64,000 nt of DNA from Sipunculus nudus (taxonomy: Eukaryota; Annelida; Sipuncula; Golfingiida; Sipunculidae): assembly GCA_026874595.1 (NCBI GenBank), contig CM049314.1:70446300-70510299 (forward strand). The letters are read 5' to 3'. Position numbers and translations under genes: made by a program. This document shows, piece by piece, positions 797 to 38,823 of this stretch. The notes beneath the pieces are model-generated. The model searched no databases. It saw only the letters and a program-made list of their open reading frames with translations, and was not told the DNA's origin. Positions within the stretch are counted from its first letter, which is position 1. Each line of letters starts with the position of its first letter.

Positions 797-2498
797 AGCT
801 CTCGATGAATAGAGGACACCTCTGATGATCAAACGGGAAACTGTGAAGCCGCATGGGACAGGAGAGGCTTATTGTCAACCTGATCAAGAGAAAACAATTT
901 ATCCGTAATAAGATTATAAAACAAAATTAGATCAATGATAAGCATTATGTTAAAATCACAATGTGCTATTAAAAAAAGAAATATAGTTGATTACAGACTA
1001 TATGCTGGGAAATAAAGGAAATTACAGAAGAAAATTTTCATAGGAAAATACAGGAAAATGTAGAAAACAAAAGAGTCAAAAGGACCCCTGCTATGTCCAT
1101 GATTGTATATCTTACCGAACACTGTATAATATCCGTCCATCACTCTCTATTCGGAGCAGGCGGTTGGGTACTGTGATGTCATGTAAATATCCCTTTTTAT
1201 CGTTACGAAAGAAGAGGTCCGGAACCCATAACGAGGTTACGAACGAGCCGTCCAGTTCCAGTGACGTCACATTCAGCAGGTGTTCGTAGCGGAGGCGTTT
1301 GTCCAACCATATTTGACGGAAGTACAACGTAATCACGTAATCCTGTAAAACATCACTTACGGTATCACAGAGCAATCGTGCTAGTTATTATTATCCATAA
1401 AACCAATGATTATTAAATTCATAAAACACATTTAAAAGATTTCTTCAGTAAGTTTCCGATCTCTGGATTTAAACATTCGTTGTTTCCAATATTTGATAAC
1501 AACATACTATATACCATTTATTTATTTTTCTCATGAGAATGGTGTATATACTGGAAAAATGAAAGTAAGACATTCTGATTTTTAATGTTTATCTAATATC
1601 TTCATTATTATAAATATAATGGATGATGTGAAATAAAGCCGCGACATCTAATGATGTCGTATTAGAATTTTATACAGAAATATCGATAATACAATTCCCA
1701 CTTTTTTTTTTTTTTTTTATAAGACAGAAGTTTCGATTTACGTTATATGTCGTAAGTCGATCTCTCGTTAAACGATAAAATGTTGAACCTAAATTACATT
1801 CGGGTTAATAAAATTGACTTACCATGGAAAGTTCCGATACCGAATCGAAGCTGAGAATCCAAAGGTTCACGTCAACTGTGGTAGCTTTGCCTGAATAAAG
1901 AAGAATGATTATATCTATCTAACAGGGAAAATTTTAAGGAAATTTTTCCATCTAGCGCTGGCCATCAGCATAAAGGGAGACCTACAGGGCCGACAGTTGT
2001 TCAACTGCAAAGGAGTAGAAGGCCAAGGGACAAGGGGCGATTTAATATTAATGGTGGAGTTGTTATATATAGCTTTTTATATATAATACGAATATAATGA
2101 ATTGATTATTAATTAAAAAATGACAATACCACTTTATTATGACTATTTATATATAATATAACTATAACTATGACAAAAATATATCAGAATTTAGGCAAAC
2201 TCAAACCAGAGCCATTTAAATTGAGTAGCCTTAATATAAGTGACCGATGAATTTCAGTTATTTACTCATGACAGAACAGTGGTTATTCAGTCTGTGTCAG
2301 GAAGAAAACTTTAAATGTTAGAACTGCACAAATATAGAACTGGAAACTTTAAAATATTCCCTGTCCATGAGGTTTAACCAAAGGTAACATCAAGTGAATA
2401 AATAAGAATATTATTTATCGAAAAACAAAGTAAAATAAAAAGCCATAATTAGGGGGAAAAGAACACTTTCCGTTCTTGGTGTTGTCTTGGAAGAACAT

Positions 2499-2568
<70 letters not shown>

Positions 2569-4078
2569 AAATGATCTGACAATTAAATGCTTATCAAATC
2601 ATGTGATTAAAACATCACCTGACTGATCACGTGCTTACCTTCATTAAACCCTGGTGGCAGACGACGGTCATAACCGGAAAGAAGTTTGTTTAGGACAGAG
2701 GCCCTGAAACAACAAAGGTAAAGTAAGAGGTATGCTAGGAATAAAACATAGCAATTAGATTATGATATATTTATATCTCATATACTGGCAATACTATATA
2801 TAAACGTTGATATGTTATAACTTTACTCTTTAGCTCTTGTTAGTTACTAGTGATGATAAAATTAAAAAGTAAAAAATTTTTAGGTGTATTACTAAAATTA
2901 TAAAATGATGATACTCATCTTGTTGTCAGCTGGAATGAGGTATGTCATTATTAGAAAATGATATTGATAAAAGTCATTTAAGACAGTATCCTTGGCTAAA
3001 ACCAGGGATTTAAGATCAATACATGCAGAAGTTACTTCACATACATATTAGACCCCATCATGTATACATTACATTTTAAATTTGGTACGGAGATCTTTTT
3101 AATGTTATGTGTATTTTTGAAATCCACAAAAATGTTCATACGAAGTTTTCATATTTTTTTTTAATGGTACACGATTTAGGCAGCCAGTGATAGCAAACTA
3201 CTTTTTAATGCTCCAATATCAAACTAGATAACAATATCTCAGAATACCGTATTTTCCTCAAAAATGTTTTTCCTCAAAAGTGTATTATTTCTTACTAAAA
3301 TTGAATTCTAAAATTTAAGTTCAATAAAAAAATAAATTAATTTTGAAACAAAATTAAAATAAAAAGGTAAGATTAATATGAAAATGTATGTGAATTTCAT
3401 AAATACATATTACCATAATAAGAAAACTTACACTATGATCGAAATGCTATATACGTCAGGGATTTAATATAAATTGTAAATGCCTTTTGGATTTATTTTT
3501 TTTTTACTAGAGGATTGGCACCCGTTGGGTCCCGTTGCAGAGGAAGGGTAAAGTGCCGCGTAGCGTGTCTCGAGACCCGTAAGGATGGCGTTGTGGCCCC
3601 TCTCTATGATTGGCTGAGAGCAGCGGGGCCATAATTTAGAGGAGTACTTGTATAGGTGAAGGTGAGCAATGGCGAGGTCGAGAGCGACATCCTTTGATGT
3701 GATATGATGCACAAGGAATTCAACTGTGTGCAAGAAGAAGGGCCAAATGTTCTGTGTGCATTTTGTAATTTAGGGTATCTGACGGACGCTGAGAGCAAAA
3801 AAAAAGTTTTGATAAGATAAGATAGATGGATTGATAGACAGACAGATAGACAGCCAGACAGACACACAGACAGACAGACAGATTTAGAGGGATTCTGCCT
3901 CACCTGGTTGCGTTGAGCATGGTCTGGTCTGAGATTATGTTTGGTTCACCTGGTACAAACGTCAGAAGTTGGCAGAAAATTAAATAACCTGAAAACACTA
4001 TGGGAATTCGGAGGTAGTCCATATTGTACGCTGGATCATTAATTTAACAATGCCCTTTCGAGCTCCAATACTCAAGTT
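797..4078 (-). CDS. Glycine-receptor-like Cys-loop channel, copy A (5' part, coding exons 1-5)
   Basis: Tandem paralogue of the channel at 22.8-38.8 kb, same strand. Coding exons: 3904-4022 (ATG at 4022; the exon begins with 5'UTR at 4078), 2639-2703, 1823-1890, 1116-1342, 797-879. Lengths 119, 65, 68, 227 and 83 nt equal those of copy B, with identical phases and GT-AG sites. It encodes a signal peptide, the N-terminal ligand-binding domain, WVPDLFF and a complete Cys loop. Exon 4 differs from copy B at 5 of about 75 residues, with no stops or frameshifts. Exons 6-9 (loop C and all membrane segments) are not visible. Left of the ATT microsatellite at about 130-245, where copy B has exon 6, the sequence is unrelated. 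The gene either continues beyond the left edge or is truncated. Confidence 0.85.
2504..2565. repeat. (AT)n microsatellite, unit A
   Basis: About 62 bp of AT dinucleotides in intron 2 of channel copy A, orthologous to the tract at 30706-30758. Confidence 0.95.
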
Positions 4079-4525
4079 CTGAAAATAAATGAAAAGTTCC
4101 AAATATTTCATATAAGATTTTTTTTTTTCAAATTTCTGTTACGTTTGTCCTATTTACGTCCCCAGTGGATCGGCAATGCTAATTAGATATTGGATAGGTT
4201 TAAAGGTCACGTGACAAATTTTTATTTTCGCAAGTTATTCTTAAGTGATTTAAAGCGTAAGGATTTCATATTGCCTCATCCACTTAAGCCACGTACATAT
4301 TGGCAAAAATTCAAGGCGGTTTACAAATTGAAAATTTATTTTACAGATCGACTGAAATGTGATTTTGAGTTATGGAGAGCTATAGGCTACAGAAGAGATA
4401 TTTAAATTTTGGGGTCATAGGTTTAAAGTAGATTATGGATGAAGGTGTCGGTGGAAGTATGCGCTCTTTGGGTGCACGTATTGCCAAGCACGCACACACA
4501 TACTTAAAATCTCTGAAATCATAAA

Positions 4526-5223
4526 CAGGCTTGGGTCAAGTACAGGGGGTCTGTACTTCTACTTGAGTAAATTTCAGTTACAGTTTTGAGTTATTAAAAG
4601 ACAAATTGTAAGTTTTTGAAGTAAAAAAATAAAGTTATAATTGTGTGATAAAAGCCGCCAGTACACATATATATGTGTTAATTATGTAACATAAATATGT
4701 TACAGCTGTTTAAATGTAAGACGATTTGTATATTCTTAATTGGATCTATAGGCCCAGGCCTTCTTTTCCTGAATAAACTTGTCGTTACTTCATTACTTCA
4801 GTACAAGTACAAATTCTTAAGCCTTTGACAAGTCCAAGTACAGAAATTTTTAGGTGTACTTGAGGACAAGTACAAGTTCAGGAGTCTGTACTAAAGTATA
4901 AGTACAAGTACATTTATCATTTAATTCATTCAGGTAAAGATCAGTACACGAAATATGTCTAACTAGGTATGCCATTTGTGATGTGTTCATGGGTTGTCCA
5001 GGGGTTTGTTTTGTAATATTGAAATATCTACATCACAAGTAGATATAAGTTTCGTTTTTGTTTAAATTTTGTACTTGACTAGTACTTGTTTTTCAAGTGC
5101 ATTTCGGGCAAGTACATGGACAGTACAAGTACTGTACTTCGTTAAGAGTGCCAAGTACAAGTACAAGGCAAGTATTCGGATATTTGTACTTAACTACAAG
5201 TACATCTACTTGAACCAAGCCTA
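4526..5223. mobile_element. hAT-like non-autonomous element (unit A)
   Basis: The ends are CAGGCTTGGGTCAAGTA and, inverted, a matching ACTTGAACCAAGCCT. The flanks atcataaa and attataat resemble a decayed 8-bp target duplication. The interior carries many AAGTACAAGTAC-type motifs in both orientations. CAG/CTG ends plus an 8-bp duplication suggest hAT, which is inference. It has no transposase frame and lies upstream of channel exon 1. Confidence 0.55.
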
Positions 5224-5285
5224 ATTATAATATAACACCAAATTTGTGGTTTAAAAAAATGGGAATGAACAAAGCAGTCTCTTAC

Positions 5286-5344
5286 CTGTAGCTTTCCGAT
5301 AAACTTTGGCAGATGCGTAGGTTTCAATGTCGGGAGCTGTCTAC
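5286..5344 (-). other. Candidate 5'UTR exon, channel copy A
   Basis: Counterpart of the copy B segment at 40.1 kb. It keeps the CTACAG|GTAAG donor and part of the exon sequence, but carries insertions and a weaker, shifted acceptor. It may be non-functional. Confidence 0.22.
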
Positions 5345-5782
5345 CTGTATACATAAATGCTTATAATATTGTTTCACTAGTTGCATTGCTTTGATTATAA
5401 ATATTTAAAAAGAGCAAATATTATTCGATGCCCTGACAACGTGCCAGAAATTCTCTTTTTCTTTCATCCGTAGTGTTTCTGATTTAAAACTTAACGTTGT
5501 CAGAAATTCACATACGAGGGGCTAAAAAATGCACGTTGACGTTTTATCATAGAACCATTCCAAACGACAGTATGGTCATTCAGGACACAACATTTATCGT
5601 ATCCTCAAACTTAGTGTAATGTTTACCAGGTTTTAATAATTCACTAAAATAGTCTCTATAGGCTTGTAAAACACAGTGAGGCCGCTTACACTGGTACTCC
5701 TGCATAAGTTATTCAGAACGTTAGGACCCCAGATAACACCCAAAAACCGTTCCTTGTCACGCTACACAGCCATCGTGCTTTT

Positions 5783-8540
5783 TAGCGAATCTGTGAGCAT
5801 ATGCGATTGCGCGGCGACGTCCGTCCGGCGTCTGCCGTCCTTTGTACGTTAACCTATGATGTCCCCAGACCGTTAGAGATAGCGCCAAATCTTGTAGAAG
5901 AGTCACTCACATGTCAAACCGAATCGGATTTTGCTATCTGCATTTACTTTGATTTTATAGAGAAAAAGCTTAAAAACGTTAAAAAATCTTCTTTTCCGAA
6001 ACTGTCCGGTCAAATTGTTTAATATTATACAGAAATAATCTCTGAAACCATCTTTCCCGAGTGTGTTCAAATGATTCCAGTTTGGTGAATTTTAACCGAT
6101 TTACAGGAAGATGAACTTAGTCATTTGGCAAAAAGGTTACTAAAATTACAATATCAGAAACGGCAGAGAGCCACCTGCATCAACTTTTCTGTACAACGGT
6201 CATCGGTCATCAGTACATTAACCCATAATTTCTCAGGAACAGCAGGAGCAAGCACCCAAATTTTTTTTTTATGCAAAAATCTGTCATATATCAAATGTTC
6301 TGGGATTGGGTGTTTTGTTGCGCCATCTGCATTAACTTACATTTTACGGAAAAAAAGCTTTAAAAAACTTTGAAAATCTTAAAAATCTTTTTCTGGGAAA
6401 TCATTCAACTCAATTAATTAATATTTCACAGAAAAATTTCCAGATATTAGTTCTCTTATGTCTGTGCAAATGGTTCTGGTTTGATGAGTATTGGCCGAGT
6501 TACAGGAATTTTAACTCAGTCATTCGGCCAAGTTAACACACTGACATAAGAATCTTAGAAACGAGAGGAGCTAGCATCACAAAGTTTTGTGCAAATATTG
6601 GTCATATGACTTAAAATCGCAGTTTTTTGGGGGACACCTACTTCGACGTGTTTAAAAAAAAAACTCTCGGAATTTTAATCTATTTCAATTTAAAAATCTT
6701 TTTAAAATGAAACTGTAAAGCTGAATCGTTTATTTTTTTCACAAGTATTATCCTAGGGTAGGGCTGTTGATATTGTACAAGAATAGATTGGGTTTGTTGA
6801 TTTTGGTAGAGTCATAGAAAGCTGAAGTTGGTCTTCGGCCATTAGTAAGCCTATTTAAAACTAAGGACCGTCTTCTCCTTCTACACAGTTGTTTCAACTT
6901 TTGTAATATTGCACAAAAATGATTTGTAGGAGGTCTTTGTTCAAGTTTACTTAAATCATCTTTTTGCAGAATTATTGGACCTTAAGTCCTTTAACAATGA
7001 AAGGACTACATCTTTTATAGTTATAAACATTTGGATAAAAATATCTTATGGATATGTAGCCAAAGTCTAACAGTATGTGTAAACAGACTTACCTACAAGC
7101 CAAGATTGAGTCTGTATCTATAAATAGCTTGGCAGACTGCCAACTATTTCAGGTTTTGCAACAGGCCAAAGTTCAGTCTGGATCTATTTATAGCTTTGGT
7201 CGACTGCCAACCGTGTCAGATTATGCAACAAGTCAAGATTTCACTCAGTGCATCCAGGAACAGGTCAAGAGTTAACTCAGTGCAGCCAAGTGCAAATCAA
7301 GAGTTCACTCAGTGTAGTAGCTGGAGCAAGCAATTTGTTCGGGTTCACCTGGGGCAACTACTTTTCTCACATAAGCCTGTTTAGCCCAGTTCACCTATGT
7401 GGTGCTACCCGCCAAGTGTATGTCAAATGGAATTTAAAAAAGAAGTTTAATTAGTTATATGGTGCATTATCAGGTCAGGTTATATTAATTTGGAACATCA
7501 AATCATAAACTGTAGTCAGAGAGACGGAGTTGATAATATTTGGTAAAGTTGTATGTTGTTGTTGTCATCCGGATTGTTACTTCAGTTTCGAGGAGGCTGG
7601 TGGATTATTCAATAGTATTTTGTTTATTATGTAAGCAAATGGACTTACTGTACCATGTGTTATTATAATTAGATGACAGAATGTTCTAGAGAATTAAGGC
7701 AATGTGTAATTTCCAATAGTTAAATTCCAGAAAATCATGTAGGTGCTAGTCCTGACGAATAAAGACCTGATCTTTCTAGAGACGTCTGTAAGTGTCGGCC
7801 AGATATAAATAGGTGGTGTCAAAGCCGCTTAGTCAGGGAATGAATTTGGAAGCTAGTGTCAGCTGGTGACAGGTCATGTTATATCAACTACATATTAGGT
7901 ATACCCCAAGCGGGGTGTAGCTGTTAAATACTGCGAGGACATTATTAGTCCTGGAGACAGTACAAATAGTCACAGCCGAACAGGGCGTTAGAAGATTTCG
8001 TGACGTACTTTGTTGAAGACATTGTCATTGTGAGATTGGAGCAAGTCAACGACGACGGTGGCCAATTGTTGGATGTTACCGGATTAAACTTGTGTTTTTC
8101 CATATTTTGGACTTTTCAGAGTAAAAAAAAAACCTCGAGAATATATGTCCGCTGCGTGTGTGGTGTGACAACCTGACTCAAGAGATGTTTGATGTATTAA
8201 TATTATATTGTCCTGATATTTTGACTTGTCCATGCATCTTTGAAAGCTTTCTTTTTCACAAGACTGGTGTCACCACCTACAATGACTTTTGCACAGTGTA
8301 TGAGCTTGCTTATTTCTCTGGAGGGATTTGATATATCAGCCTGAAATTATGCATATTTATACATAGCGGATATATTTGTCGTATACATTACTAGTGTTCC
8401 ACCTACAATAGTTCCTGCACAGTTTATATCCCTGTTTATTTTTCAGAATGGTTGGACACATACTCTTGAAAAGTAATGGCCCAACATTGATGCATTACAC
8501 TTGGTGTATATCCCATTGCACAGGTTCGCATAAGGCCTGT
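5783..8540. mobile_element. ~2.75-kb repeat with GCGAACCTGTG-type inverted ends (unit A)
   Basis: It begins near a degenerate AGCGAATCTGTG and ends near CACAGGTTCGC, the inverse of the motif. The interior has GTCCGTCCGGCG at the left and AT-rich blocks that recur at 16.3-16.96 kb, plus a locally repeated block of about 67 bp near 7.1-7.2 kb. Small ORFs at 6.1 and 7.1-7.4 kb are not conserved in frame. No transposase is seen. It covers the otherwise gene-free interval between the candidate 5' exons. Confidence 0.5.
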
Positions 8541-9058
8541 ATGCCTTGTTCACAACTAGAACACCTCTTTCATGACAACATAGGTAAATTTTGTGTTAAC
8601 CAATCTACACTACAGTAATGTTATATTGGTAAATAATTTTATAATAATTTTGTTATTATCTTCATTTACCTCATAATGCAGCAGAGAACTGGTGAATTGT
8701 TAATATGATATTTCCGTTTTATACCAGAGGTATGAGTTTACGTGAATTATTGTGGTTGTTTAATATTAAATATTTAATATTCGCAAGGATGAATTTTTCG
8801 CGATTTTCAATAGAGGATTCCATTTTTGCCATGACATCATAAATTCACATACCATATTTATGGTGAATATTAGCTACGTCTTTTTGTTAATTAAAAATGT
8901 GTCTGTGAATATTTTATCTTATTTTTTTTTTTAGTTTTGGGGGCGCTTATGTGTGTGTCATTTTGTTTATAAATCTCGTGTCCCTATATATACATACTAT
9001 ATAATGTCGACTATCAACTTTTCATGAAAGCAGATAGCTTCTTATTTATATGACTTAC

Positions 9059-9280
9059 CAGGTATGGATGCGCTTGAGATGCCAGATGTGAAATAGTCAA
9101 ATCCATGCAAGCAGGTATAGGCCTGGTCTTATTTACGATCACGTTTTTCTCACACATGTCCAGTGTCTTCATAGAATGTAAAAGGTTGACGTTTGCTTCG
9201 ATCTGTTTAGTGGAATGTGATCTATGATATATAAAGTGAAATATGCGTTTGTAATGTATAATGGTGATTTTCATAATAAA
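9059..9280 (-). other. Candidate upstream 5'UTR exon, channel copy A
   Basis: Counterpart of the segment at 43.86 kb, with the same GTAAGTC donor and exon end at 9059. It lies about 5 kb upstream of the copy A start codon. The 5' boundary is approximate and promoter elements are not recognisable. Confidence 0.3.
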
Positions 9281-9471
9281 GAAAATGTTGCTTTATTTCT
9301 TAAATATTGCCCCCTAATTTCTATTTGCTTTCTCATATATTTAGATCAATAGGAAAAGGATATATAATCAATGAAAATTTGGAGGTCCGAAGGGCGGCAC
9401 AAGACGCTTATTCTGTCACCTATAACAGTTGTGATGTTTAAATGAGTTCATGAGCAGTCCCTGTATATTTT

Positions 9472-9860
9472 AGCCTAGGTCTCACCTACCTCGTCCTTCT
9501 TTGAGGTCTCACGGTTCCGCTACTACAAGCCAGAACGTCGCAGTGTCGGGAATGAACGTGATAAAAAAAGACGCGTTATCCTGACGTTCATGGCACGTTC
9601 TCCCCACGGTATTCCAAGTCCATCCACGATGCCGCTACGGCATTGGAACTGTTATAACCACGTTCTCCTACGGTAAACCTTAGCTTGCAGTAAAAGAACG
9701 TATGTAGGCCCCGTTCTTCCCAGTGCTTGCCATGTTCTCGCTACAGTCCTGACAGTGCTATACACCTTCTCCTTCGGCAGTGTCACGGTTATCACGTTCA
9801 GTCACATTTTCCTACGGTATCCTACGGCAACTGAGCACGTTTTTAGGTGCAAGAGGATTG
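9472..9860. mobile_element. Left part of a TIR element with CTACGGTA motifs (unit A, truncated)
   Basis: It starts AGCCTAGGTCTCACCTAC, like the complete element at 44.25 kb, and contains repeated TTCTCCTACGG motifs and their complements. The similarity ends near 9860 and the right terminus is absent. Confidence 0.5.
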
Positions 9861-10189
9861 AAGTGGAAACCCCTTTTTCATCCTAATTAATTATGCATTA
9901 TTTTTGTACTGGGAAGCTCTTCCCTTAAATGTAGAAACTGAAGTCTTTATTTTTAAACATACCAATTGTAATCTTGTGTGATTGATAAACCAATGCCTAA
10001 ATTTTATGACATATATAAGACATATAAAAAATTAATATTTTATTAATTCAGTGATTTCACAGTGAAAATCTGACTATTATAACTCTATGTGCTTTCAAAT
10101 ATCCTACTTGATATCAGCATGAGACTACAAACCTGATATCCTGACTAAAAAACAATTTTACTGTATAATAAACTGTGATATCCTTTATG

Positions 10190-10260
10190 TTATCAGTGTG
10201 GGCTCAGATGTGTAAGACAATAATTAAGTAAAAATTTTACTGTGTGATTATATCTGACGA

Positions 10261-10291
<31 letters not shown>

Positions 10292-13200: not shown

Positions 13201-14061
13201 ATCTGACAATATCTCTCTCTCCAGATATTGTACATGATATCAGCGTGGGCCCGGATGTGTAAGATATTATTTAAGTACAGAGTACACTGTGTGATAATAT
13301 CTGACAATATCTCTCTCTCTCCAGATATCGTACATGATATCAGCGTGGGCCCGGATGTGTAAGATATTATTTAAGTACAGAGTACACTCAGTGATAATAT
13401 CTGACAATATCTCTCTCTGCAGATATCGTACATGATATCAGTGTGGGCCCGGATGTGTAAGATATTATTTAAGTACAGAGTACACTGTGTGATAATATCT
13501 GACAATATCTCTCTCTCCAGATATCGTACATGATATCATTGTGGGCCCGGATGTGTAAGATATTATTTAAGTACAGAGTACACTGTGTGATAATATCTGA
13601 CAATATCTCTCTCTCCAGATATCGTACATGATATCAGCGTGGGCCCGGATGTGTAAAATATTATTTAAGTACAGAGTACACTGTGTGATAATATCTGACA
13701 ATATCTCTCTCTCTCTCCAGATATCGTACATGATATCACCGTGGGTCCGGATGTGTAAGATATTATTTAAGTACAGAGTACACTGTGTGATAATATCTGA
13801 CAATATCTCTCTCTCTCCAGATATCGTACATGATATCCGCGTGGGCCCGGATGTGTAAGATATTATTTAAGTACAGAGAACACTGTGTGATAATATCTGA
13901 CAATATCTCTCTCTCTCCAGATATCGTACATGATATCAGTGTGGGCCCGGATGTGTAAGATATTATTTAAGTACTGAGTACACTGTGAGATAATATCTGA
14001 CAATATCTCTCTCTCTCCAGATATCGTACATGATATCAGCGTGGGCCCGGATGTGTAAGAT
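10190..14061. repeat. Satellite/minisatellite array, 98-bp unit, ~38-39 copies
   Basis: GATATCGTACATGATATC starts recur at 10391, 10489, 10587 and 10685, an exact 98-bp period. Each unit has two GATATC sites 6 bp apart, GGGCCC, an AGTACAGAGTACACT near-palindrome and a CT run. Variation is a few point changes, a 10-bp deletion near 13180 and extra CT pairs in the last units. Decayed units extend left to about 10.1 kb. Because 98 is not a multiple of three, frames shift from unit to unit and the short ORFs here are not genes. Confidence 0.97.
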
Positions 14062-14296: not shown

Positions 14297-14382
14297 TAAG
14301 TGAAAATAACTTACTGAGTATTTCTTGACCAAAATTTATGAACACAAATCCAGACTTGAATTCCAACTATTGTGTATTTCAG

Positions 14383-21275: not shown

Positions 21276-21278
<3 letters not shown>

Positions 21279-24446: not shown

Positions 24447-24518
<72 letters not shown>

Positions 24519-25181
24519 ATATAAAATCCGAACATTGCATGAACAGGGTGTCCACCTAAGATCTACCTAAGATCTCGTAGGAACCAAAATAAAAGTAGTT
24601 CGGCTAAAGATAGCGGAAAAATTTGGGAATACGGTACCTTTCAGAATTCCTTTAGAAAAAATGGCCTCAACTGCGTCTCCGAAATATTTTCATTCATGCC
24701 ATCTATATCGCCCTCTTGCTACCTGTATTTTGTCCTATGTTGTCCGATATGAAGGGTCTTTATGTTAGATCGCCTGCTCATCCGTCATGCGAATACCAGG
24801 ATCTACGCAAACGCTTTTTTCTAATTAAAACAATAATATATAATATACCATAAAAAATTAAAATGTATTTGTTTGATTATCATAAAAATTTATTTCACAT
24901 TTATATACTCACAAACCTGTTCGATTGGATCCATTTTGTAGCCATATCGCGCCCATATTTCCTGACGGATTACTGCGGTGGGATCAAGCTGGTCACGTGT
25001 CGTCTTCGATTCAACCTTCTTCATACTTACGGCCAAGGCAAATCTCTTTCTCCGACGAGACAACACGTTAACCAACGCGAACTCCAGTAATCCCGCGAAA
25101 ACGAAAGCGAGGCAGACGAGCATCCAGATGTCAATGGCTTTGATGTAGGACACGTGGGGGAGTGCCTGAAGAGGGAGATTT

Positions 25182-25217
<36 letters not shown>

Positions 25218-27474: not shown

Positions 27475-27521
<47 letters not shown>

Positions 27522-30500
27522 TTTATGATATTTATTATACTACTTTAAAGAGAACACCGTAAGAGTCATCCTGCTGTGGCCCTGAGTCAGGAGCAAAATA
27601 CAATTAACATAATAATCATGAACAATATGACAATACAAGTAAATAAAATACAGTTTGCAGGATGTAAGCGGTTATACACTGCAGTCATCCCGTATCTCCT
27701 TCGTTTCAACCGCTGCTTTGTTTGGCAAGTTTATCGGGGTCTCAACACCAGGGTGCGCAGTGGTCCAAGAATCAGACCACCGAAAGCGGGATGTCACGGA
27801 TCTAAAACTTGGAGCTGGATGGACAATGCGATACTACGTTCTTATCGGTCGGATAACAATCGTCTGCTCTGTGTGAGCCCTGGTGGTATAACCCCGGCAG
27901 TCTGGCTATGCAAAGCAGCGGTTAAAACGAAGGAGATCTCAAACGACTGAGTTGTATAACCGCTGCGTGTGGAATGTAGGTGTCATGTAGGACATTCATA
28001 AGTAAACCTATAAAAGGAAAATATGAATACGTTTTTCAAAAGACAATTAAAATCAACTGGTTACACAGATAAACAAAGAGCGGTAAGAAACTCAGGAACA
28101 AACTGACAATATTCTGTTGAATAACAAGTTATATTTCAAGACCCTGTTTTACGCTGTCGTAAAAAAATGTATGTATTTTAATGTGTAATATGTTACTCAA
28201 TGTGCGGTTTATGTTATACCTTACAACTAAATATATATCATATCGTGTTATTCATTTCATTAATGAGGGTATTTAAATATTTAAGAATAATGGCTTATAT
28301 ATCTTTAGATTACAGGTATCTCATGACTGATATACTCAAGTATTTCCTGCATATATTATATATATTTTTATATATAAACCTGCCATTTGTTTGCTTTTTA
28401 TAGCCAGGTCTCGGTTACTTACAGCTCTCGATGAATAGAGGACACTTTTGATGATCGAACGGGAAACTGTGAAGCCGCATGGGACAGGATAACGTCATTG
28501 TCAACCTGATGGCAAGAAAGAAATTTATTGATAATACAATAATAATACAAAAATATATATAAAATATATTGGTATCTGCTCACTTCTGTACACAATTGTA
28601 TATAAACTTGCAAAGAGCACGACCAGTGACGCAATACATAAATATAGTGCACACGCCACCTGGTGGCCGCAACACCCAACTTCACAAATAAAGATTTTTC
28701 AAGCCACAAACCATCTCGTTTCTGTGTATCTATTCTCATGCTTCTTCTCTTTGCACGGGAGTCGTCGCGCATGCAACTATCTTTACCGTATTCGTTAAGT
28801 GGAGTCTAATCGTAAAGGTCAATCTTGACTAAAAGACTATGTAAGGGGTCACACTAAGATCCTGAGAAATATAGGAATTTTATATTAGGACTTGAGACAA
28901 AATTATCGGCGTATATAAGAATTTCCAGCCCCCCCCCCCCCCAATGGGAAAGGATTACAATTTTCTATGCACAATCGTGGTATATTTACGTGGCCATCTA
29001 TCTATGGCAGCGGGTAAAGGTCTGTCTGACTGGTTTGGATGGCTACACTTAATTGTAAGACTGGACCACTTTTATGGACAATTCTACATTAAACTGTATG
29101 TTTTCAATAATAATTGGATTATATAACAATAATCATTCAATGATAAGCATTATGTTAAAATCACAGTTGGGCGAATAAAAAATAAAGGTGATTTATAGGT
29201 GATTACAGAATAAATGTAGGAAAATATAGGAAATTATAGGACACACTTTTTTCATAGGAAAATACAGGAAATGTAGGAAATATAAAGAGTCAAAGGGACC
29301 CCTGTTATGTCAATGATTGTATATCTTACCGAACACTGTATAATATCCGTCCATCACTCTCTATTCGGAGCAGGCGGTTGGGTACTGTGATGTCATGTAA
29401 ATATCCCTTTTTCTCGTTACGAAAGAAGAGGTCCGGAACCCATAACGAGGATACGAACGAGCGGTCCAGTTCCAGTGACGTCACATTCAGCAGGTGTTCG
29501 TAGCGGAGGCGTTTGTCCAACCATGATTGCCGGAAGTACAACGTCATCACGTAATCCTGTAAAATATCACTTACGCTATCACAGAGCAATCGTGCTAGTT
29601 ATTATTATCCTAAAGTAAAATCAATGATTATTAAATACATAAAACACATTTAAAAGATTTCTTCAGTTATTTTGCGATCTCTGGATTTAAACACTCGTTG
29701 TTTCCAATATTTGATAACAACATACTTTATACCATTTACTGATTTTTCTCATAAGAATGGTATATATACTGGAAAAATGAAAGTGAGACATTCTGATATT
29801 TAATGTTTATCTAATGACTTTTAATTATAAATATCACGGATGATATGAAATAAAGCCGCGACATCTGCCGATATCGTAATAGAAATACAGAAATATCTTT
29901 ACTTTTAGTCACACTTCATTTTATTTTATAAGACAAAAGCCTGATTTACGTTATATTTCGTCAATCAATCTGTCATGAAAGGATAAAATGTTGGACCTAA
30001 ATTACATTCGGGTTACTACAACTGACTTACCATGGAAAGTTCCGATACCGAGTCGAAGCTGATAATCAAAAGGTTCACGTCAACTTTGGTAGCTTTGCCT
30101 GAATAAAGAAGAATATATCTATCTTTCAGGGAATATTTTAAGAAAATTTGGCCATCAGCATAAAGGGAGGCCTACAGGGCCGACAGTTGTCCAACTGCAA
30201 TGCAGTAGACGGCCTACGGACAAGGTTCAATTGATACAGGGGCGATTAAATATTAAAATTGGAGTTTCTATATATAGCTTTTTAATATAATATGAATATC
30301 ATAATATATTATTAATTAAAATATGACAATACCACTTTATTATGATTATTTTTGTATAATGTAACTATAATTAAGACAGAAATATAACAGAATGTTGGCA
30401 AACTAATACAAAAGCCAGTTAAATTGAGTAGCCTTGATATGAGTGACCGATGAAATTTAGTAATTTACTCATGGACAGAACAGTGAGTATTCAGCCTGTG

Positions 30501-30701
30501 TCGGGAAGAAAACTCTAAATGTTAGAACTGCTAAAAATATAGAACTGTTTTTTTTAATATTCCCTGTCAATGAAGTTTTATCAAAAGTAACATTAAGTGA
30601 ATAAATAAGAATATTATTTATCGGAACCCAAAGTAAAATAAAAAGCCAGGATTAGGGGGAAAAGAACACTTTCCGTTCTTGGTGTTGTCTTGGAAGAACA
30701 T

Positions 30702-30761
<60 letters not shown>

Positions 30762-32433
30762 AAATCATCCGACAATTAAATGCTTATCACATCACGTGTT
30801 CAAAACATCACATGACTGATCACGTGTTACCTTCGTTAAACCCTGGTGGCAGACGACGGTCATAATCGGAAAGAAGTTTGTTTAAGACAGAGGCCCTGAA
30901 ACAACAAAGTTAAAGTAAAACATATACTAGGTATAAAACATATAATATAATATAATATAAAACAATAAGATTATGATATTTTTATATGTCATATACTAGC
31001 AATACATTATATAAACGTTGATATGTCACACCTTCATCTCTTGCTAGTTACAAGTGATGATAAAATCAAAAAGTAAATATTTGTAGGTGTAATACTAAAA
31101 TTATAAAATGATGATACACATCTTGTTGTCAGCTGGAATAAGGTATGTCATTATTAGAATATGATATTGATAAAAGTCAGTTAAGACAGCATCCTTGGCT
31201 AAAACCAGGGATTTAAGATCAATATATACAGAAGTTTCTTCACATACATATTAGACCCCATAATGTATACATAACATATTAAATTTGGTACGGAGATCTT
31301 TCTAATGTTATATGTATTTATGAAATCCACAAAAAATTTTCATACGAAATTTTTCATATTTTTTAATGGTACATGATTTAGGCAGCCAGTGATAGCAAAC
31401 CACTGTTTAATGCTCAAATATCAAACTAGATAACAATATCTCAAAACACGTATTTTCCTCAAAAACCGTTTTTCCTCAAAAGTGTATTCTTTCTTACTTA
31501 AATTGAAATTTTAGATTTAAATCAATAAACGAATTTAATTAACTCTAAAACAAAATTATAATAAAAATGTTAAGATTAATATGAAAATGAATGTGAATTT
31601 CATAAATACATATAACCATAATAAGAACACTACACCATCATCAAAATGCTATATACTTCAGGGATCTAATAATAATTGTAAATGCCTTTAGGGTTGATTT
31701 TTATTTTTTTACTAGAGAATGGGGACCCGTTGGGTCCCGTTGCAGAGAAAGGTTCTATTTGCCGCGTAGCGTGTCCCAAGACTTGTAAGATAGCGAACTC
31801 CACAGACCCGTAAGGTAGCGACGCCTTGTGCTGGATACGGAACCAGTTATTTATTTCTTTGTGGTAATAATAATAATAATAATAATAATTTTATTCAACT
31901 CAAGTGACCCCTTTCGAGGTATACAGAGTCATGCAAAACTATATTACAGTGTATATACAGGATGTGCTGTGACTACATGTAACTACATATAATAACTATA
32001 TCACAGGTAATACTTACACAATGAACACAGCTCTTATTTGTTTGAAAACATGCATTAAGTGTGTTAGTGTATATAAGTGTACATACAATCTACATCTTCT
32101 AGTGCAAGTGAACTATCAATAACTTGCTTGTAAACATTCAAGTTTGTATAAAAGTGTAGGTACAAACAGTACTACATATACTATAGAGTCATATCACAGG
32201 TATTAGGTGCAGTAACATTAAATATAAAAAGTTGCTGACTATATAATTTGGCCTCAGAAAGTTTCCTAAGGTGATAATAGTGTATATTATAAGGCACCTT
32301 GTCTATGATTTACTTCTATGTTTTTTGTACATTTAATGTATAATGAGATCAATCACTTATATGGTAGAGGTAGAGATGCCTTATATATGCATGTCAAGCA
32401 CATTTTGTTACATAAATTAGAAATAAACATATA

Positions 32434-32482
<49 letters not shown>

Positions 32483-35400
32483 TATATATACATACACGCA
32501 TGTGTTTTGATTTACTCTATAAGGATATAAATAGGAAAGCTTTTGTATGTCATGTCACTGCAAATACAAAATTGTATAATGGTAGAGAAAATAATACATA
32601 TATCACATAAATACTATATGGAGATAAATAAGTGCATAGAAAAATATAAAGCAGCTAGTTTACATGCACTGACTTGTACAACTGTATTTCTATGATATAG
32701 GTATGATTCCTAGAATAGACAATGCATATTTAATACCTAAGAATATAAATATATATGCACATAAATTCAATCTGTTGGGTTAACAATCAGATAGACAGTG
32801 ACTAGTTGCAAAATAAACATACAAATACAGTCTGGGTACAATCAAGATTTCTTACAAGATCTAGTATCACAGTTTCATTATGAGATCAATAAACACGACA
32901 GGTATTGCAGTTGTGTTGTTTATGCTGCTTAAGAATAACAAGCTTGCTCCATACTTTACAAGAAATGAATGAGCATTTCATACGTAAGAGGATAAACCTG
33001 GTTGAGCAAATATGAGGGTGATCATATATAGACATTGTAAATATTTTGTACATAGTATTCTAACTATAAATGAATGAACATTTCATACATATGGGAATAA
33101 ACCTGGTTGAACAAATATAAAGATGATCATATATGGGCATTGTAAATATTCTGTACAGGGTATATTTTAACTAAATTTGGATATAATCTTTTTAGCAAAC
33201 TTGGCTAGGTTTGACAGCTGAAGTTGGTCTGTGACACTGAATAATTCATGCATTTTTAGTGTGTTTGGTCTGGTTCTATAGTACTGGTTTATATAGTTGA
33301 GTCTTTCTTGTCTAAATTCAGGGCATATAAAAAGGTAGTGGAATTCATCACCCTGCTCATTCATGTTGCATAGGGTACATGCCTTAGAGCCAGTTAAGTG
33401 GTCAGGGTTGCTGTTGGATGCTGGCAGTTTATGATTTGCACAGCGAAATTTAGTGAGGGCTATTCTGTCAGCAAAATTTAATATGTTCAGATATTTTTCA
33501 AAGCCAAGATTCTTTTTGAAAATCCTGTAACTGCAACAGGATTTGAGTTCTGCTATTTCATTTTGCAAATTTTGCTGACTCATGTCATGTAGCCTTAGTT
33601 CAATGCTCTTTTTCAGCCATTTTTTGTTGACATTATGTCCCTCATCCCACATATTAGAGTAACCACATTTGTCCAGTATATCTTTAATCTTGGAAGCCCA
33701 CTTTGGTTTGAAGGTGGTTTTGTCAAACATACTTTTCTGGAGTTTAAACATAATACTAGAGAGTTTGCTTTGCCTGCCTTCTAATAACCTGATCCAGAAA
33801 TTAATCATTCTTCTTTCAACTAAACTAGTTATAGGAGTTCTGCCTATTTCCCCATATACCATGCAGTTTGTTGTATTTTTGTTCATTCTGAGCAGTTTCT
33901 TAAAGAATTTTTTCTCAAAAATTGCAATCTGATTTAGGTTCTGGAAGCCCCAAATTTCCGAGCCATAAAGTAATATTGGAATGACCAGTGAATCAAATAG
34001 CTCACATTGAAGATCTATGGGCAGTTTGAGTTTGCTTGCTTTTGTTATAAGGCTGAACATGGCTGGTTTAGCTTTGTTAACTTGCTTGTTGATGGCTTTA
34101 TGAAATAAACCATTATAATTAAACATTGTGCCTAGGTATACATATTCATCCACCACCTCTAGCATCTCGTTACCAAAAGAGAAGGATGGGAATGACCTGA
34201 CTTTTCCTTTGGCAAAAATAACCACTTTTGTCTTTTCTGTGTTGACGCTTAGATTCCATTTTCCACAATAATCATGGACAGCATTTAGGGCAGTCTGCAA
34301 ATCTTCAGGTGATTCTGCCATAACAATAGTATCATCCGCATAGAGGAGAGCATATAATCTTAGAAATAATTCAGTGTCATCATCACTGAGGTTGCTTCTT
34401 AAAGTATCGGCCAACAGGCCTAATCCATTATAGCTGCGGCTTATAAAAAATTCAAAATCATTTAAATATATGGCAAATAAAAGTGGAGACAGGTTTTCAC
34501 CCTGACGCACTCCAACATTACAAGAAAAGGAGTCAGATAAGAGTCTTCCATTTTTTATGCAAGATTTGGCGTTTTTGTACATGTTGTATATTACTGTTAA
34601 GAGTTTGCCGTTGATACCATTATTTATCAGCTTATACCACAGAGAGGATCTATCGATTAGGTCAAAAGCTTTCTTGTAGTCAATAAAAGCACAAAATACT
34701 CTTCGTTTGTTATGCATGTAAAGCTCAAGCAGTGAATGTAAAACAAAAATGTGGTCAAGGGTAGAATAACCCTCTCTAAACCCTGCCTGCTCATCGCCCA
34801 TTATTCCACAAGCATCTATGTAGTTGGCCAGCCTGACATTCAGTGTTGCTGTGAACAGCTTGCCAAGACAGCTTAATAAAGTTATGCCACGATAATTATC
34901 GGGGTTATCAGTAGCACCTTTCTTTTTATATATTGGTTGAATAATTCCGGTACACCAGTCATCAGGGACTAATCCAGTTTCTAAGACAATATTAAACATC
35001 TTTACTATAATATGTACAACTTTTTGGGGGCAGTTTTTAATAAATTCATTTAGGATATTATCTACACCACTTGCTTTATTGTTCTTGAGCTTTCTGATTA
35101 TTGGCACTACTTCCTCAACAGTGAAACATCCATTAATGAATTCATTAATGGTGTGACCTGCACTCTCTGGGTTAAAAGTTTCGCTACTTGTGTTTTCATT
35201 TGTGCATTTTTTATTGCCCAGGTTTTTAAAGTGATTCACAAAGGTTTCCATGTTAATATTTCCAGATTTATTTTGTGTGGAACAAGCACTATTAATAGTT
35301 TTCCAGTACTCTTTGGGGTTTGTGCTTTTTAGGTTTCTCAGGTTTATGTGGACTGCTGAGTAGTAATTTTTTTGTACTCGTTTGATAAATGTTTTATATT

Positions 35401-38400
35401 CTTTGCATTTTTGTTTGTACAGTAGCCTTGTCTCAGGTGTTTTTGCCTTTTCCCAGTTGTTTTTTGCTTTAAAGTAGTCATTTCTTTTAGTTTCACAGTC
35501 TTTGTTAAACCAAGGCTTGTGTTCGTGTTTTCTTGTCATACATTTGTTTGCCTTCTTTTTCCCTAAATACAGTGATTTTGTTATTCCTACTTGTTCAGCT
35601 GGTTTTATCAGTATTTTACATAAGTCTCTAGCTAGCTTGTCAATTTTTTCTTGGGTCATGGCTGTGGGATCAATCTTTTCCAGCTCTAACTCTAAATCTA
35701 AAATAATGTCTGGTTTGAACGCACTAATGTAATCGCCTACTAAATGATTTTGCCATCTGGATTTAACTTTGACAGCGCTGAAATTTTTGACGTTATCCTC
35801 AGGTAAGTCGGTTTCATAGTTATTAGCCGAGTCAGTGAGAGCCTGACATGGGTACCCTGTGCGGATTGTGATGCTGACTGGTTTATGCACATCAGATAGA
35901 AATGAGTCATAATTTTCGATTTTGAAACTTTTGATTTCAGGAAACAAGCATGAAGAAGCTACAACATAGTCGACCACACTGTTTCCTTGAGTGTTCTGAC
36001 ATGTAAATTCACCTTCTTGATCAGCTCCTAATCTTCCATTAACTATTTTTAAGTCACAGGTTTTACATAGATCAATTAGATTACGCCCGTTTTTATTTGT
36101 ACCTTTATCTTTGTTACATCTGCTGGTGTTAATACCGAGACTTTCAATTTTGCTCTTTGAGCATGGCACATCATACTCATCAAAGTTAAAATTGTCAATT
36201 ATCTCAGCATTTTCATCCTCTATGAAATCATCAAGCAATCCTGTTCTAGCATTGAAGTCTCCTATCAATATAAAAGGTTTGTTATACTTGCTCTTTAGAA
36301 ATACAATGTCATCAGCAATATCATTAAAACAGTTTTCTTGAAAATGCACAGAGCTTTCACATGGTAAATATACAATACCTAATATGTATTCTGTTTTGGA
36401 AGTATCTATACTAAGTTTGACCCACAGGACATTTTCTGAACATGTGTTGTGTAAGAAGTGCACAGATTTGAAATAATTTTCTCTGACAAATAAACAGATG
36501 CCGTGAACGCCCCCATGTCTATGACTATTACATTTTTTGGGCATAACTAATGGTTTGAAATTAGGTAAACAATCAATGTCAATTTCATCAGTTTTGGTTT
36601 CACACAGTCCTACCAAGTCAAAGGCTTGGACATACTTATCTAGTATACCATAGTTCAACTTACTTTTCAGGCCACATACGTTCAGTCCAAGTATCCTAAT
36701 TTGAACATTGTTAAAGTCATTTGCATAGCAGTGATCCAGGCACACGGTGTTGAAATCTGTAATCGGCTTTTTTAAATTACCTTTCTTGGATACTTTGTAG
36801 TCGTTTGAAGAATCTGGATTGTAGGGGTCAAGCCTGTCCTAGCATGTGTTGAAGAGTCCGGATTCCACTAGTTTTTCTTCATTCCACCCGATTTGTAGAA
36901 GGTCATCTGGAGACTCTATGACTTTCTTTGTTTCTTTGCCGCCCTCCATGAAGATGAGGAAGATCTTGCCATCTATAGTCCACACTTTTTTTACGTTTGT
37001 GTCTTTCTTCAGCTCATACACCATTTTGCTTCTTAACTGGGTCAGATCATCATTAAGGAACAGATGTTTGTGGGCACTTGTATTTCTTAGCTTTCTTTTG
37101 TTTTTCATGAGCATTGTTTTTGTGTCTCTCCTTACAAATTTTACAATAATTGGTCTTTTCTCACCTCTACCTGGTAGCCTGTGGCTAACACTGATGTCCT
37201 CTGGCTTTATGTCCACTCCGATGGCTTTACCTATGTTCATCACGATGCTGTTGGTGTTCTCGTTGTCAGATTCAGCCACACCGACAATTCTCACGTTCTC
37301 TTTGCGACTGTATTGCTCTAGTCTATCATATTCAAATTTCTGTTTCTGCAGTTCCTTTCTCAACAGGACGATTTCTTTCCTGCTTTGTTCTAGTTCCTTT
37401 GTTATTTCAGTTTTTATGTCCGTAAAAAGCTGTTTTGCTGATGTCGCCACTGCGGTTGTAACAGCAGAGGTGAGGGCTTCCACCAAAACCGGTTGAACTT
37501 GGCCGATCACCTGGGCCACTATGTCCCCTATTGTCGCCCCTGATGTTGCTTTGGAGGGTTTCTTTGACTTATTTCCATTTGACACGATATTCAGCTCACC
37601 TAGGGAAGCTTTCACAGCATCGTGTACTGCTTCGGTAACATTGCTAAGTAAAATATCATCTCCTGAATCGTTAGTTTCTGTTAGTTTTTCAAAGCGGTTA
37701 GCGTTGGTCGCCATCTTGCTTAGCTGCAATGGCCCACAAGCCCGTATTATAATGTGGTAATGGGCCACGGTGAAGGTTAGACTGGTTCCCCACTCTATAA
37801 TGGCCCCGCTGCTCTCGGAAGAATAGACTGGTACCCTGCTCTATTATGGCCCTCAGTCAAGCATAGAGACAGGCGTACAACGCCATCTTAGGTACTCCCA
37901 GTTGCAACTCCTGACTTACCTGTAGACTGGTTCCAACCCCAGTCTGCACGCTCATAGCGATTGTCATGGACGTTCACGCGATCCTGGTTGGTTATCCGTG
38001 AAGATTTCTTATAAAATTACCTTTTTTAGTTATTTAAAGTTTCCAAATATTTAAAATGAGTTGTTGCACAAAAATTGTTTGATGGATGTATAGTTGACAC
38101 GATATACTGAATCTTTGATATTCCACTGTAATTGGCATTGGTTTATTATCAATATCTATTAATCTAATTATAAATGTAACACGAAATGTACAGCAAACTT
38201 TTAACAACTTCTCTGAGCAAACGAAATGCTTAATTTTATTATATGTAATACATACTAGAGTTGGAACCAGTCTGCCGGGAGCACTGAAGATGGCGTTGTA
38301 CGCCCGTCTCTATGATTGGCCTGGAGCAGCGGTGCCATAATAGAGCGGGGTACCAGTCTATCGGAAGCACAGCGCCATTTTCAGTACCCATGGTAAACTG

Positions 38401-38823
38401 GTTCCAACTCCATTGTATATGAGAAAAATAAACATTTCGGGGAAGTTGCCAAAAGCTGGCTGTACATTTCATGTGATATTATCGACAAGATTGATAGATA
38501 TTATTGATAAATCAATGCAGGTTTTCTGGGACATACAAACAAACAGACAGGACAATTTTAGTAGTAATTAGAAGAAGATAGATAGATATAGATAGATAGA
38601 TTGAGAGGGATTCTGCCAGGGATGCTGCAAAAACATATACGTACTCACCTGGTTGTTTTGACCTTGGTCTGGTCTGAGAGTCTGTGTGGTTCACCTGGTA
38701 CAAACGTCAGAAGTTGGCAGAAAATTAAATAACCTGAAAACACTATTGGAATTCGGAGGTAATCCATTTTGTACGCTGGATCATTAATTATGCAATACCC
38801 TTTCAAACTTCGAAACTCAAGTT
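22786..38823 (-). CDS. Glycine-receptor-like anionic Cys-loop ligand-gated channel, copy B (complete, 9 coding exons)
   Basis: Predicted plasma-membrane pentameric chloride channel gated by an amino-acid transmitter. Coding exons (minus strand, first to last): 38649-38767, 30831-30895, 30031-30098, 29330-29556, 28423-28505, 27092-27226, 26177-26382, 24917-25165, 22786-22938. They sum to 1305 nt, i.e. 434 residues plus stop, and every junction keeps phase. Seen: signal peptide about 1-25; WVPDLFF in the ligand domain; a 13-residue Cys loop between C167 and C181 containing FPFD; a second cysteine pair C226/C238, as in GlyR and GluCl; TM1 about 251-273; PAR at 279-281 before TM2, the anion-selectivity signature; TM3 about 310-333; a short basic cytoplasmic loop; TM4 about 412-434 ending at the stop. 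Exon lengths of 68 and 83 nt resemble the known GlyR layout. The exon 8 donor is GTTTGT; a nearby GTGAGT would break the phase into exon 9. The ligand cannot be told: glycine, GABA and glutamate are all possible. Confidence 0.9.
23600..23830. mobile_element. Diverged partial copy of the CAGCGG MITE
   Basis: It shares the internal stretch (cattggtctgattacaat and the aaagcagc...ttacaacgatgg end) with the elements at 404 and 27666. The left end is not clear. It lies in the intron between channel exons 8 and 9. Confidence 0.4.
24449..24515. repeat. (AT)n microsatellite
   Basis: About 66 bp of pure AT in the intron between channel exons 8 and 9. Confidence 0.95.
27256..27530. repeat. Complex AAT/ATT microsatellite
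   Basis: About 275 bp of (AAT)n passing into (ATT)n, immediately upstream of the channel exon 6 acceptor. The corresponding tract in unit A (130-245) marks the left duplication boundary. Confidence 0.9.
27666..27965. mobile_element. MITE with ~53-bp terminal inverted repeats (unit B)
   Basis: Counterpart of the element at 404-694, about 300 bp, lying between channel exons 5 and 6. The two TIR arms match over about 53 bp with a few mismatches. Short ORFs across it are incidental. Confidence 0.7.
30706..30758. repeat. (AT)n microsatellite, unit B
   Basis: About 53 bp of AT, orthologous to 2504-2565. Confidence 0.95.
31893..33166 (-). other. LINE 3'UTR
   Basis: A gene-free stretch between the ORF2 stop and the ATT tail. 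It contains an (AT)n tract at 32437-32477 and two short direct repeats near 32960-33030 and 33060-33130 (GAGGATAAACCTGG and GGGAATAAACCTGG with their surroundings). Confidence 0.7.
32437..32477. repeat. (AT)n microsatellite in the LINE 3'UTR
   Basis: About 41 bp of AT. It lies inside the element and probably arose there. Confidence 0.9.
33167..36745 (-). CDS. LINE ORF2: endonuclease-reverse transcriptase polyprotein (1192 aa)
   Basis: It drives target-primed reverse transcription of the element RNA. An APE-like endonuclease occupies about residues 10-300: an early Asn, a CETK glutamate, GDFNAR, then a terminal SDVHKP in place of the usual SDH. The reverse transcriptase spans about 560-870: FIDYKKAFD near 685, the [13 protein letters not shown] block, and the catalytic YADDT near 803. 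The C-terminal region has a Cys/His cluster (CTLCN...[10 protein letters not shown]) near 1125-1145, seen in several invertebrate LINEs. The frame is uninterrupted over 3.6 kb, which argues for recent insertion. ORF1 lies just upstream. The first Met is taken as start; a downstream Met is possible. Confidence 0.93.
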   Translation of the reverse strand: MCLDHCYANDFNNVQIRILGLNVCGLKSKLNYGILDKYVQAFDLVGLCETKTDEIDIDCLPNFKPLVMPKKCNSHRHGGVHGICLFVRENYFKSVHFLHNTCSENVLWVKLSIDTSKTEYILGIVYLPCESSVHFQENCFNDIADDIVFLKSKYNKPFILIGDFNARTGLLDDFIEDENAEIIDNFNFDEYDVPCSKSKIESLGINTSRCNKDKGTNKNGRNLIDLCKTCDLKIVNGRLGADQEGEFTCQNTQGNSVVDYVVASSCLFPEIKSFKIENYDSFLSDVHKPVSITIRTGYPCQALTDSANNYETDLPEDNVKNFSAVKVKSRWQNHLVGDYISAFKPDIILDLELELEKIDPTAMTQEKIDKLARDLCKILIKPAEQVGITKSLYLGKKKANKCMTRKHEHKPWFNKDCETKRNDYFKAKNNWEKAKTPETRLLYKQKCKEYKTFIKRVQKNYYSAVHINLRNLKSTNPKEYWKTINSACSTQNKSGNINMETFVNHFKNLGNKKCTNENTSSETFNPESAGHTINEFINGCFTVEEVVPIIRKLKNNKASGVDNILNEFIKNCPQKVVHIIVKMFNIVLETGLVPDDWCTGIIQPIYKKKGATDNPDNYRGITLLSCLGKLFTATLNVRLANYIDACGIMGDEQAGFREGYSTLDHIFVLHSLLELYMHNKRRVFCAFIDYKKAFDLIDRSSLWYKLINNGINGKLLTVIYNMYKNAKSCIKNGRLLSDSFSCNVGVRQGENLSPLLFAIYLNDFEFFISRSYNGLGLLADTLRSNLSDDDTELFLRLYALLYADDTIVMAESPEDLQTALNAVHDYCGKWNLSVNTEKTKVVIFAKGKVRSFPSFSFGNEMLEVVDEYVYLGTMFNYNGLFHKAINKQVNKAKPAMFSLITKASKLKLPIDLQCELFDSLVIPILLYGSEIWGFQNLNQIAIFEKKFFKKLLRMNKNTTNCMVYGEIGRTPITSLVERRMINFWIRLLEGRQSKLSSIMFKLQKSMFDKTTFKPKWASKIKDILDKCGYSNMWDEGHNVNKKWLKKSIELRLHDMSQQNLQNEIAELKSCCSYRIFKKNLGFEKYLNILNFADRIALTKFRCANHKLPASNSNPDHLTGSKACTLCNMNEQGDEFHYLFICPEFRQERLNYINQYYRTRPNTLKMHELFSVTDQLQLSNLAKFAKKIISKFS
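36839..37768 (-). CDS. LINE ORF1: RNA-binding chaperone-like protein (309 aa)
   Basis: A likely nucleic-acid-binding partner of the ORF2 protein in the retrotransposon RNP. An N-terminal Ala/Thr-rich part is followed by a charged, heptad-like coiled coil (about residues 115-160, many Glu, Lys and Gln). Then comes an RRM-like block beginning [10 protein letters not shown] and continuing through [18 protein letters not shown], and a basic C-terminal part. This order is known from L1- and CR1-type ORF1 proteins. A second Met at codon 19 (MATNANRF) may be the true start, since the first 18 residues lie in repeat-rich leader. No frameshift is seen. Confidence 0.82.
   Translation of the reverse strand: MAHYHIIIRACGPLQLSKMATNANRFEKLTETNDSGDDILLSNVTEAVHDAVKASLGELNIVSNGNKSKKPSKATSGATIGDIVAQVIGQVQPVLVEALTSAVTTAVATSAKQLFTDIKTEITKELEQSRKEIVLLRKELQKQKFEYDRLEQYSRKENVRIVGVAESDNENTNSIVMNIGKAIGVDIKPEDISVSHRLPGRGEKRPIIVKFVRRDTKTMLMKNKRKLRNTSAHKHLFLNDDLTQLRSKMVYELKKDTNVKKVWTIDGKIFLIFMEGGKETKKVIESPDDLLQIGWNEEKLVESGLFNTC
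37780..37945 (-). repeat. LINE 5'UTR repeated modules
   Basis: Two imperfect modules with GAGCAGCGGGGCCAT (or relatives), TAGAG, then GGTACCAGTCT or GGAACCAGTCT, next to GATGGCGTTGTACGCC. A related block occurs inverted at 38262-38410 and, diverged, at about 3560-3640. Confidence 0.6.
38262..38410 (+). repeat. Inverted copy of LINE 5'UTR-like module
   Basis: The plus strand reads like the complement of 37830-37935: ACCAGTCTGCC, GATGGCGTTGTACGCC, CTCTATGATTGGC, GCCATAATAGAGC. Unit A holds the same module at about 3560-3640 without any LINE. Confidence 0.6.

Follow-up and report, generated by a model that had tools for sequence, protein, structure and literature searches.

Five tandem glycine-receptor-like channel subunit genes in Sipunculus nudus: exchange between copies, a constrained pore and a variable ligand-binding domain

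Introduction

Are two neighbouring channel genes in the sipunculan Sipunculus nudus an isolated pair or part of a larger set, how have the copies changed since they arose, and which transmitter might their products recognize? These questions are raised by a stretch of 64,000 bp (the window below) from contig C9 (CM049314.1, positions 70446300-70510299) of the assembly GCA_026874595.1, which comprises 1.43 Gb in 153 contigs; an original prediction had placed in it two tandem genes, here A and B, for subunits resembling those of glycine receptors (GlyR). We conclude, with a probability of roughly 0.8, that A and B are two of five intact tandem genes for GlyR-like anion-selective subunits that arose by successive duplication, that A, B and C have exchanged pieces, and that the pore is constrained and the ligand-binding domain (LBD) of the young copies changes almost freely.

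Results

Five intact genes on one contig

A search of the whole assembly with exon-4 DNA gave five candidate places, all of which were scored and all of which lie in one array on C9 (100, 97, 93, 88 and 82% identity); no sixth copy was found by this search. The five genes stand in the order D (C9:70399245-70392052), C (C9:70422502-70405563), A (C9:70450321-70439093) and B (C9:70485066-70469085) on the minus strand, followed by E (C9:70541105-70556767) on the plus strand. Each is an intact gene of nine exons with frames open across all nine, and the lengths of exons 2-8 are equal in all five. The expansion of inhibitory channels that had been suggested from the pair in the window is supported, and is larger than that pair. 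In the literature available as open-licence full texts we did not find an array of this kind described, either by its exon layout or as tandem GlyR-like genes of gastropods. A lone relic of an M3 exon with in-frame stops lies ~29 kb past gene E (C9:70585428, minus strand).

Gene models of A and B

Gene B is complete to its stop codon, and its 434 codons are distributed over nine minus-strand exons as follows (window coordinates; residue numbers are those of the transmitter pocket, below): exon 1 (38649-38767, 119 nt) carries the ATG and a likely signal peptide; exon 2 is at 30831-30895 (65 nt); exon 3 (30031-30098, 68 nt) encodes pocket position 37; exon 4 (29330-29556, 227 nt) encodes pocket positions 54, 56, 93 and 121, with codon 93 at 29419-29421 (CGT, Arg, in loop A); exon 5 (28423-28505, 83 nt) encodes the Cys loop and Glu149-Ser150; exon 6 (27092-27226, 135 nt) completes Tyr151 and holds the first Cys of the second Cys pair; exon 7 (26177-26382, 206 nt) holds the second Cys, M1, the Pro-Ala-Arg (PAR) motif and M2; exon 8 (24917-25165, 249 nt) holds M3 and the start of the intracellular loop; and exon 9 (22786-22938, 153 nt including the stop) holds M4. 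Position 38823 is the first base past a TTTTCAG acceptor and lies 56 nt ahead of the ATG, so a non-coding 5' exon of B is likely.

Gene A, also on the minus strand, has in the window exons 1 (3904-4022, 119 nt), 2 (2639-2703, 65 nt), 3 (1823-1890, 68 nt), 4 (1116-1342, 227 nt; codon 93, CGT for Arg in loop A, at 1205-1207) and 5 (797-879, 83 nt). It appears partial there because the window ends inside the gene; exons 6-9 are present in the assembly to the left of the window, from C9:70444293 down to 70439093. Exons 1-5 of both copies have open frames and AG/GT splice sites, and the exon lengths, the open frames and the completeness of B with its Cys loop, second Cys pair and PAR motif are exactly as originally predicted; the transcripts would be spliced as modelled here. 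Read directly, the B protein has a C-x13-C Cys loop (in exon 5), the second Cys pair CNTIYGPTGSFAC, the PAR motif and M1-M4 (M4 in exon 9), as a Cys-loop receptor should. Pfam matches agree with this: Neur_chan_LBD (PF02931, 155 bits) and Neur_chan_memb (PF02932, 122.7 bits) on B, and Neur_chan_LBD on exons 1-5 of A. Within exon 8, A, B and C have an in-frame alternative GTAAGT donor (after 25031, minus strand, in B) that D and E lack; if B used it, the intracellular loop would be 38 residues shorter.

Family placement

Among the best 60 of 332 matches in a search of the PDB with the B protein, GlyR alpha-2 scored 350.7 bits and the first GABA-A chain (beta-3) 284.6 bits, and no chain was named as a glutamate-gated chloride channel (GluCl). 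In a tree of exon 4 the array groups with a gene on another contig (C10:19.78 Mb; support 0.887) and human GlyR joins them in a wider clade (0.803), a result that is only indicative as the tree is short (76 residues) and midpoint-rooted. The second Cys pair and the closest PDB similarity are the GlyR-family traits of B; a second Cys pair is also common to GluCls (PMC13335744). The PDB search and the tree thus support the GlyR-like placement made originally, with the array proteins as probable GlyR-alpha-like anion channels. All five genes encode PARISLG, with Pro-Ala-Arg at the inner end of M2, from which the channels would be expected to conduct anions, and each gene probably encodes one of the subunits of a chloride channel that is pentameric and is gated by a small amino-acid transmitter. 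In the array genes M2 and M3 are separated by an intron (window 26177-25165 in B) that is seemingly absent at C10:19780084 and C5:50731319, where both segments lie in one open frame.

Nicotinic receptors, which are cation channels, offer a parallel. Their expansion has been reported for lophotrochozoans (PMC6896357), and the large LBD family of this genome (at least 152 matches, counted exon by exon) fits that report. The array shares its duplication pattern with the expanded nicotinic families of molluscs, and differs from them in having five members and in being anionic by its PAR motif.

Duplication and exchange between copies

Window positions 9866-136 around A and 44650-27408 around B form a collinear alignment that takes in introns and upstream DNA and totals ~9.3 kb, with 81-89% identity in blocks of at least 85 bp; the duplicated segments so defined by block homology, both on the minus strand, are 136-9866 (A copy) and 27408-44650 (B copy). 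Homology of intron and flanking DNA, and not only of exons, proves that the duplication was recent, and the array as a whole would have arisen by successive segmental duplications of this kind. The original prediction had stressed the identical exon lengths and phases of A and B; we rejected these as the sign of a special pair, because AG and GT stand in the same phase as in B exon 4 in all 21 other anion-channel exon-4s that were read in this genome (35.5-68.4% protein identity to B exon 4; for these only the dinucleotides were read, at the places outside the array, leaving out C3:4776940 at 29% identity).

Intron 1 is 7.8 kb long in B and 1.2 kb in A. The B intron carries a long interspersed nuclear element (LINE) retrotransposon (window 33167-37840, minus strand) with open frames of 1223 aa (endonuclease and reverse transcriptase matches) and 333 aa (no Pfam match); both frames are uninterrupted and the insertion may therefore be recent. 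The A intron is too short to hold that LINE.

Have the copies evolved separately since they were duplicated? A, B and C are in fact mosaics of one another, with pieces exchanged after duplication. A and C are 93-97.5% identical in blocks that start ~8 kb upstream and end shortly after exon 4, with 97.5% identity across one 6.6-kb 5' block. Farther on the affinities change: B and C differ at 0, 4 and 4 positions in exons 5, 6 and 7, A and B at 8, 14 and 13. In the stretch that runs from exon 8 to the 3' flank, identity is 96.5% between A and B and 88.4% between A and C. Within the 5' block the informative sites, of the AC type at 206 of 247, turn to the AB type (15 of 23) at exon 4 (Fisher's test on AB versus AC, p = 1.4e-12). 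The intron-4 segment has 7 AB, 11 AC and 12 BC sites, and exon 4 differs from it (p = 0.004). At 7 of the 12 exon-4 sites that set A and B against C, however, E agrees with A and B, and much of the AB signal is therefore change in C only rather than proof of conversion between A and B; C equals E at only 5 of the 12, D also being equal at 2 of those, and we dropped the firm claim of exon-4 conversion from A to B or the reverse. A 98-bp minisatellite (38.6 copies, 96% match) lies between B and A at 10281-14061, and A-C matches in steps of ~98 bp show that gene C, too, has a repeat of this kind upstream; these repeats may have had a role in unequal exchange.

The 97.5% identity of A and C over 6.6 kb is also what unmerged haplotypes would give, and the copies could in principle be artefacts of assembly. 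We consider this very improbable because of the mosaic structure and the copy count: the same two copies differ by 9-21% in the blocks that begin at exon 5 and reach the 3' flank, all five genes lie on a single contig of 79.8 Mb, and the exon-4 DNA search gave no match on other contigs.

Selection on the pore and the ligand-binding domain

Ratios of replacement to silent change (dN/dS, or omega) were calculated with pairwise codon models for five gene pairs and four regions, and their p values are uncorrected. The original prediction looked to an A-B value well below 1 as support for constraint, and this did not hold for the genes as wholes: omega is 0.71 (p = 0.47) in exons 1-5, the part visible in the window, and 0.66 (p = 0.15) in the full coding sequence. 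The average conceals two very different domains. Only M1-M3 is constrained between A and B (0.13, p = 0.0004), against an LBD value of 1.01; A-C gives 0.79 in the LBD (not different from 1) and 0.09 in M1-M3 (p = 4e-5), and B-C 0.62 (p = 0.27) and 0.16 (p = 0.09), respectively. LBD values that involve the older copies are well below 1 (B-E 0.29, D-E 0.24). Simple codon counts tell the same story. Replacement and silent codons between A and B number 26:9 in the LBD and 4:10 in M1-M3 (Fisher p = 0.008); the LBD ratio differs from that of D-E (41:45, p = 0.009) and the M1-M3 ratio does not (6:17 in D-E, p = 1). Exon 6, with 45 residues, holds 12 of the 42 amino-acid differences between A and B. 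With the pore constrained and LBD omega near 1 in the young pairs, the youngest copies have kept the pore and have loosened or diversified the ligand-binding part.

Could these values instead point to decay or relaxation of the duplicates A, B and C, with an LBD that drifts as the older D and E do the work? The LBD values of A-B and A-C are those expected of such genes, the A-B dS (0.079, NG86) is near the rate of substitution in a 5' flank block (0.072), and the whole-gene A-B value (p = 0.15) is compatible with a relaxation of constraint in A or B after they separated. All three genes, on the other hand, remain open over nine exons with splice sites, and the pore is still constrained in the A-B and A-C comparisons. 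We regard decay or relaxation as an unlikely explanation and prefer strong constraint on the pore together with almost free change, in the youngest copies, of the part that binds the transmitter.

The transmitter pocket

GluClcryst numbering was placed on the array proteins by spacing, with no gaps from 56 to 151 (56 + 37 = 93, 93 + 28 = 121, 121 + 30 = 151). All five genes encode Tyr54, Arg56, Ser121, Glu149, Ser150, Tyr151 and a loop-C T-x-x-F. Position 93 in loop A varies: it is Arg (CGT) in A and B, Asn (AAT) in C and His (CAT) in D and E. Outside the array it is His in the nearest relative (C10:19.78 Mb) and Asn in the next (C10:20.00 Mb). As D and E share His with that nearest relative, Arg most simply arose inside the array, and the simplest course would be a change from His to Arg in A and B and to Asn in C. 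Position 37 in loop G is Leu in A, C, D and E and Ile in B.

The vertebrate GlyR alpha subunits, the best PDB match of B, share with the array the Cys loop, second Cys pair, PAR motif, M1-M4, loop-D Arg, loop-E Ser and loop-B Glu; they differ in having Ala at position 93, where the array has Arg, Asn or His, and in that B has one more residue in loop C and the genes here form a five-copy mosaic array. Ecdysozoan GluCls share the general anionic Cys-loop architecture, but have Arg37 in loop G and Thr54 where the array has Leu or Ile and Tyr54. In lophotrochozoan GluCls the glutamate-recognizing Arg is in loop A (PMC4338433), and this trait is present in two of the five array genes: Arg93 is common to A, B, Aplysia GluClAc1 and GluClAc2 and Schistosoma SmGluCl, and is absent from C, D and E. 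Aplysia GluClAc2 also shares Tyr54, Arg56, Ser121, Ser150, Tyr151, Thr198 and Phe201 with the array. Arg93 without Ser121 occurs as well in three anion-channel genes on contig C5 (50641442, 50642151 and 50737104).

Did A and B, then, become glutamate-gated through a recent His-to-Arg change in loop A, so that the Arg found in Aplysia and Schistosoma channels would have arisen here separately and late? The Arg of GluClAc2 is predicted to bind the alpha-carboxyl of glutamate (PMC4178172), and at ten pocket positions taken from that paper (37, 54, 56, 93, 119, 121, 150, 151, 198 and 201; the letters of Ser121 and Thr198 from PMC4338433) A matches GluClAc2 at nine (all except 119, which is reported as non-essential) and B at eight (all except 37 and 119); as noted, the Arg is most simply derived within the array. 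However, C, D and E also match at eight (all except 93 and 119), so the number of matches alone does not set A and B apart, and the three more distant C5 genes have Arg93 without Ser121. The Arg is, moreover, not all-or-none, since the Aplysia R135A mutant, which gives no response at 1 mM glutamate, responds robustly at 50-100 mM (PMC4178172). Loop B also speaks against it: here small first residues correlate with glutamate binding, and the A197E mutation, which puts Glu at the first loop-B residue of AVR-14B, abolished glutamate currents (PMC4338433); the Schistosoma GluCl has Gly at this position, 149 (PMC3757052), and all five array genes have Glu. Glutamate gating of A and B is for these reasons unlikely, and we rejected their classification as GluCls because Glu149 is kept. 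They combine one glutamate-type feature (Arg93) with one glycine- or GABA-type feature (Glu149). For D and E the pocket makes a ligand of the glycine, beta-alanine or GABA type a somewhat favoured prediction; for A and B a shift towards glutamate is the weaker prediction, less likely than not.

Other features of the window

The C-terminal piece of a trypsin-type serine protease lies at window 58954-59496 on the plus strand (PF00089, 37.8 bits). When eight other open reading frames of the window were compared with Pfam, matches were found only in this piece and in the 1223-aa frame of the LINE.

Discussion

Several of the above results weigh against the conclusion that five GlyR-like genes duplicated successively, exchanged pieces and kept a constrained pore beside an almost freely changing LBD. 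At 7 of the 12 exon-4 sites that set A and B against C, the letter of E is that of A and B; the whole-gene A-B omega does not reject 1, and the tests it belongs to are many and uncorrected; gene conversion violates the assumptions of codon models and distorts pairwise dN/dS; and, where the pocket is concerned, Glu149 in every copy argues against glutamate gating, and C, D and E have the same match count as B.

A bolder course of events, which we think improbable, is that one CAT-to-CGT transition provided A and B with an almost complete glutamate pocket of the Aplysia type and that exon 4 then moved as a unit between copies, making this a recent and separate origin of glutamate recognition. 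If true, it would be such an origin in progress, in which a pocket with Glu149 answers glycine- or GABA-type ligands as well as glutamate, beside sister subunits that keep the ancestral His.

In kind the array is ordinary, a small tandem expansion of genes for GlyR-like subunits of chloride channels. It is less usual that close paralogues sharing a conserved pore carry a natural series of His, Asn and Arg at a position related to the ligand. The residues that determine the transmitter, and the number of times that glutamate recognition has arisen, have so far been argued largely from distant receptors and from mutants; in five close paralogues with a near-frozen pore the effect of the loop-A residue would be measurable in a well-matched background. 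The array is also a case of exchange between copies shaping a receptor repertoire, and it could serve to watch transmitter preference evolve.

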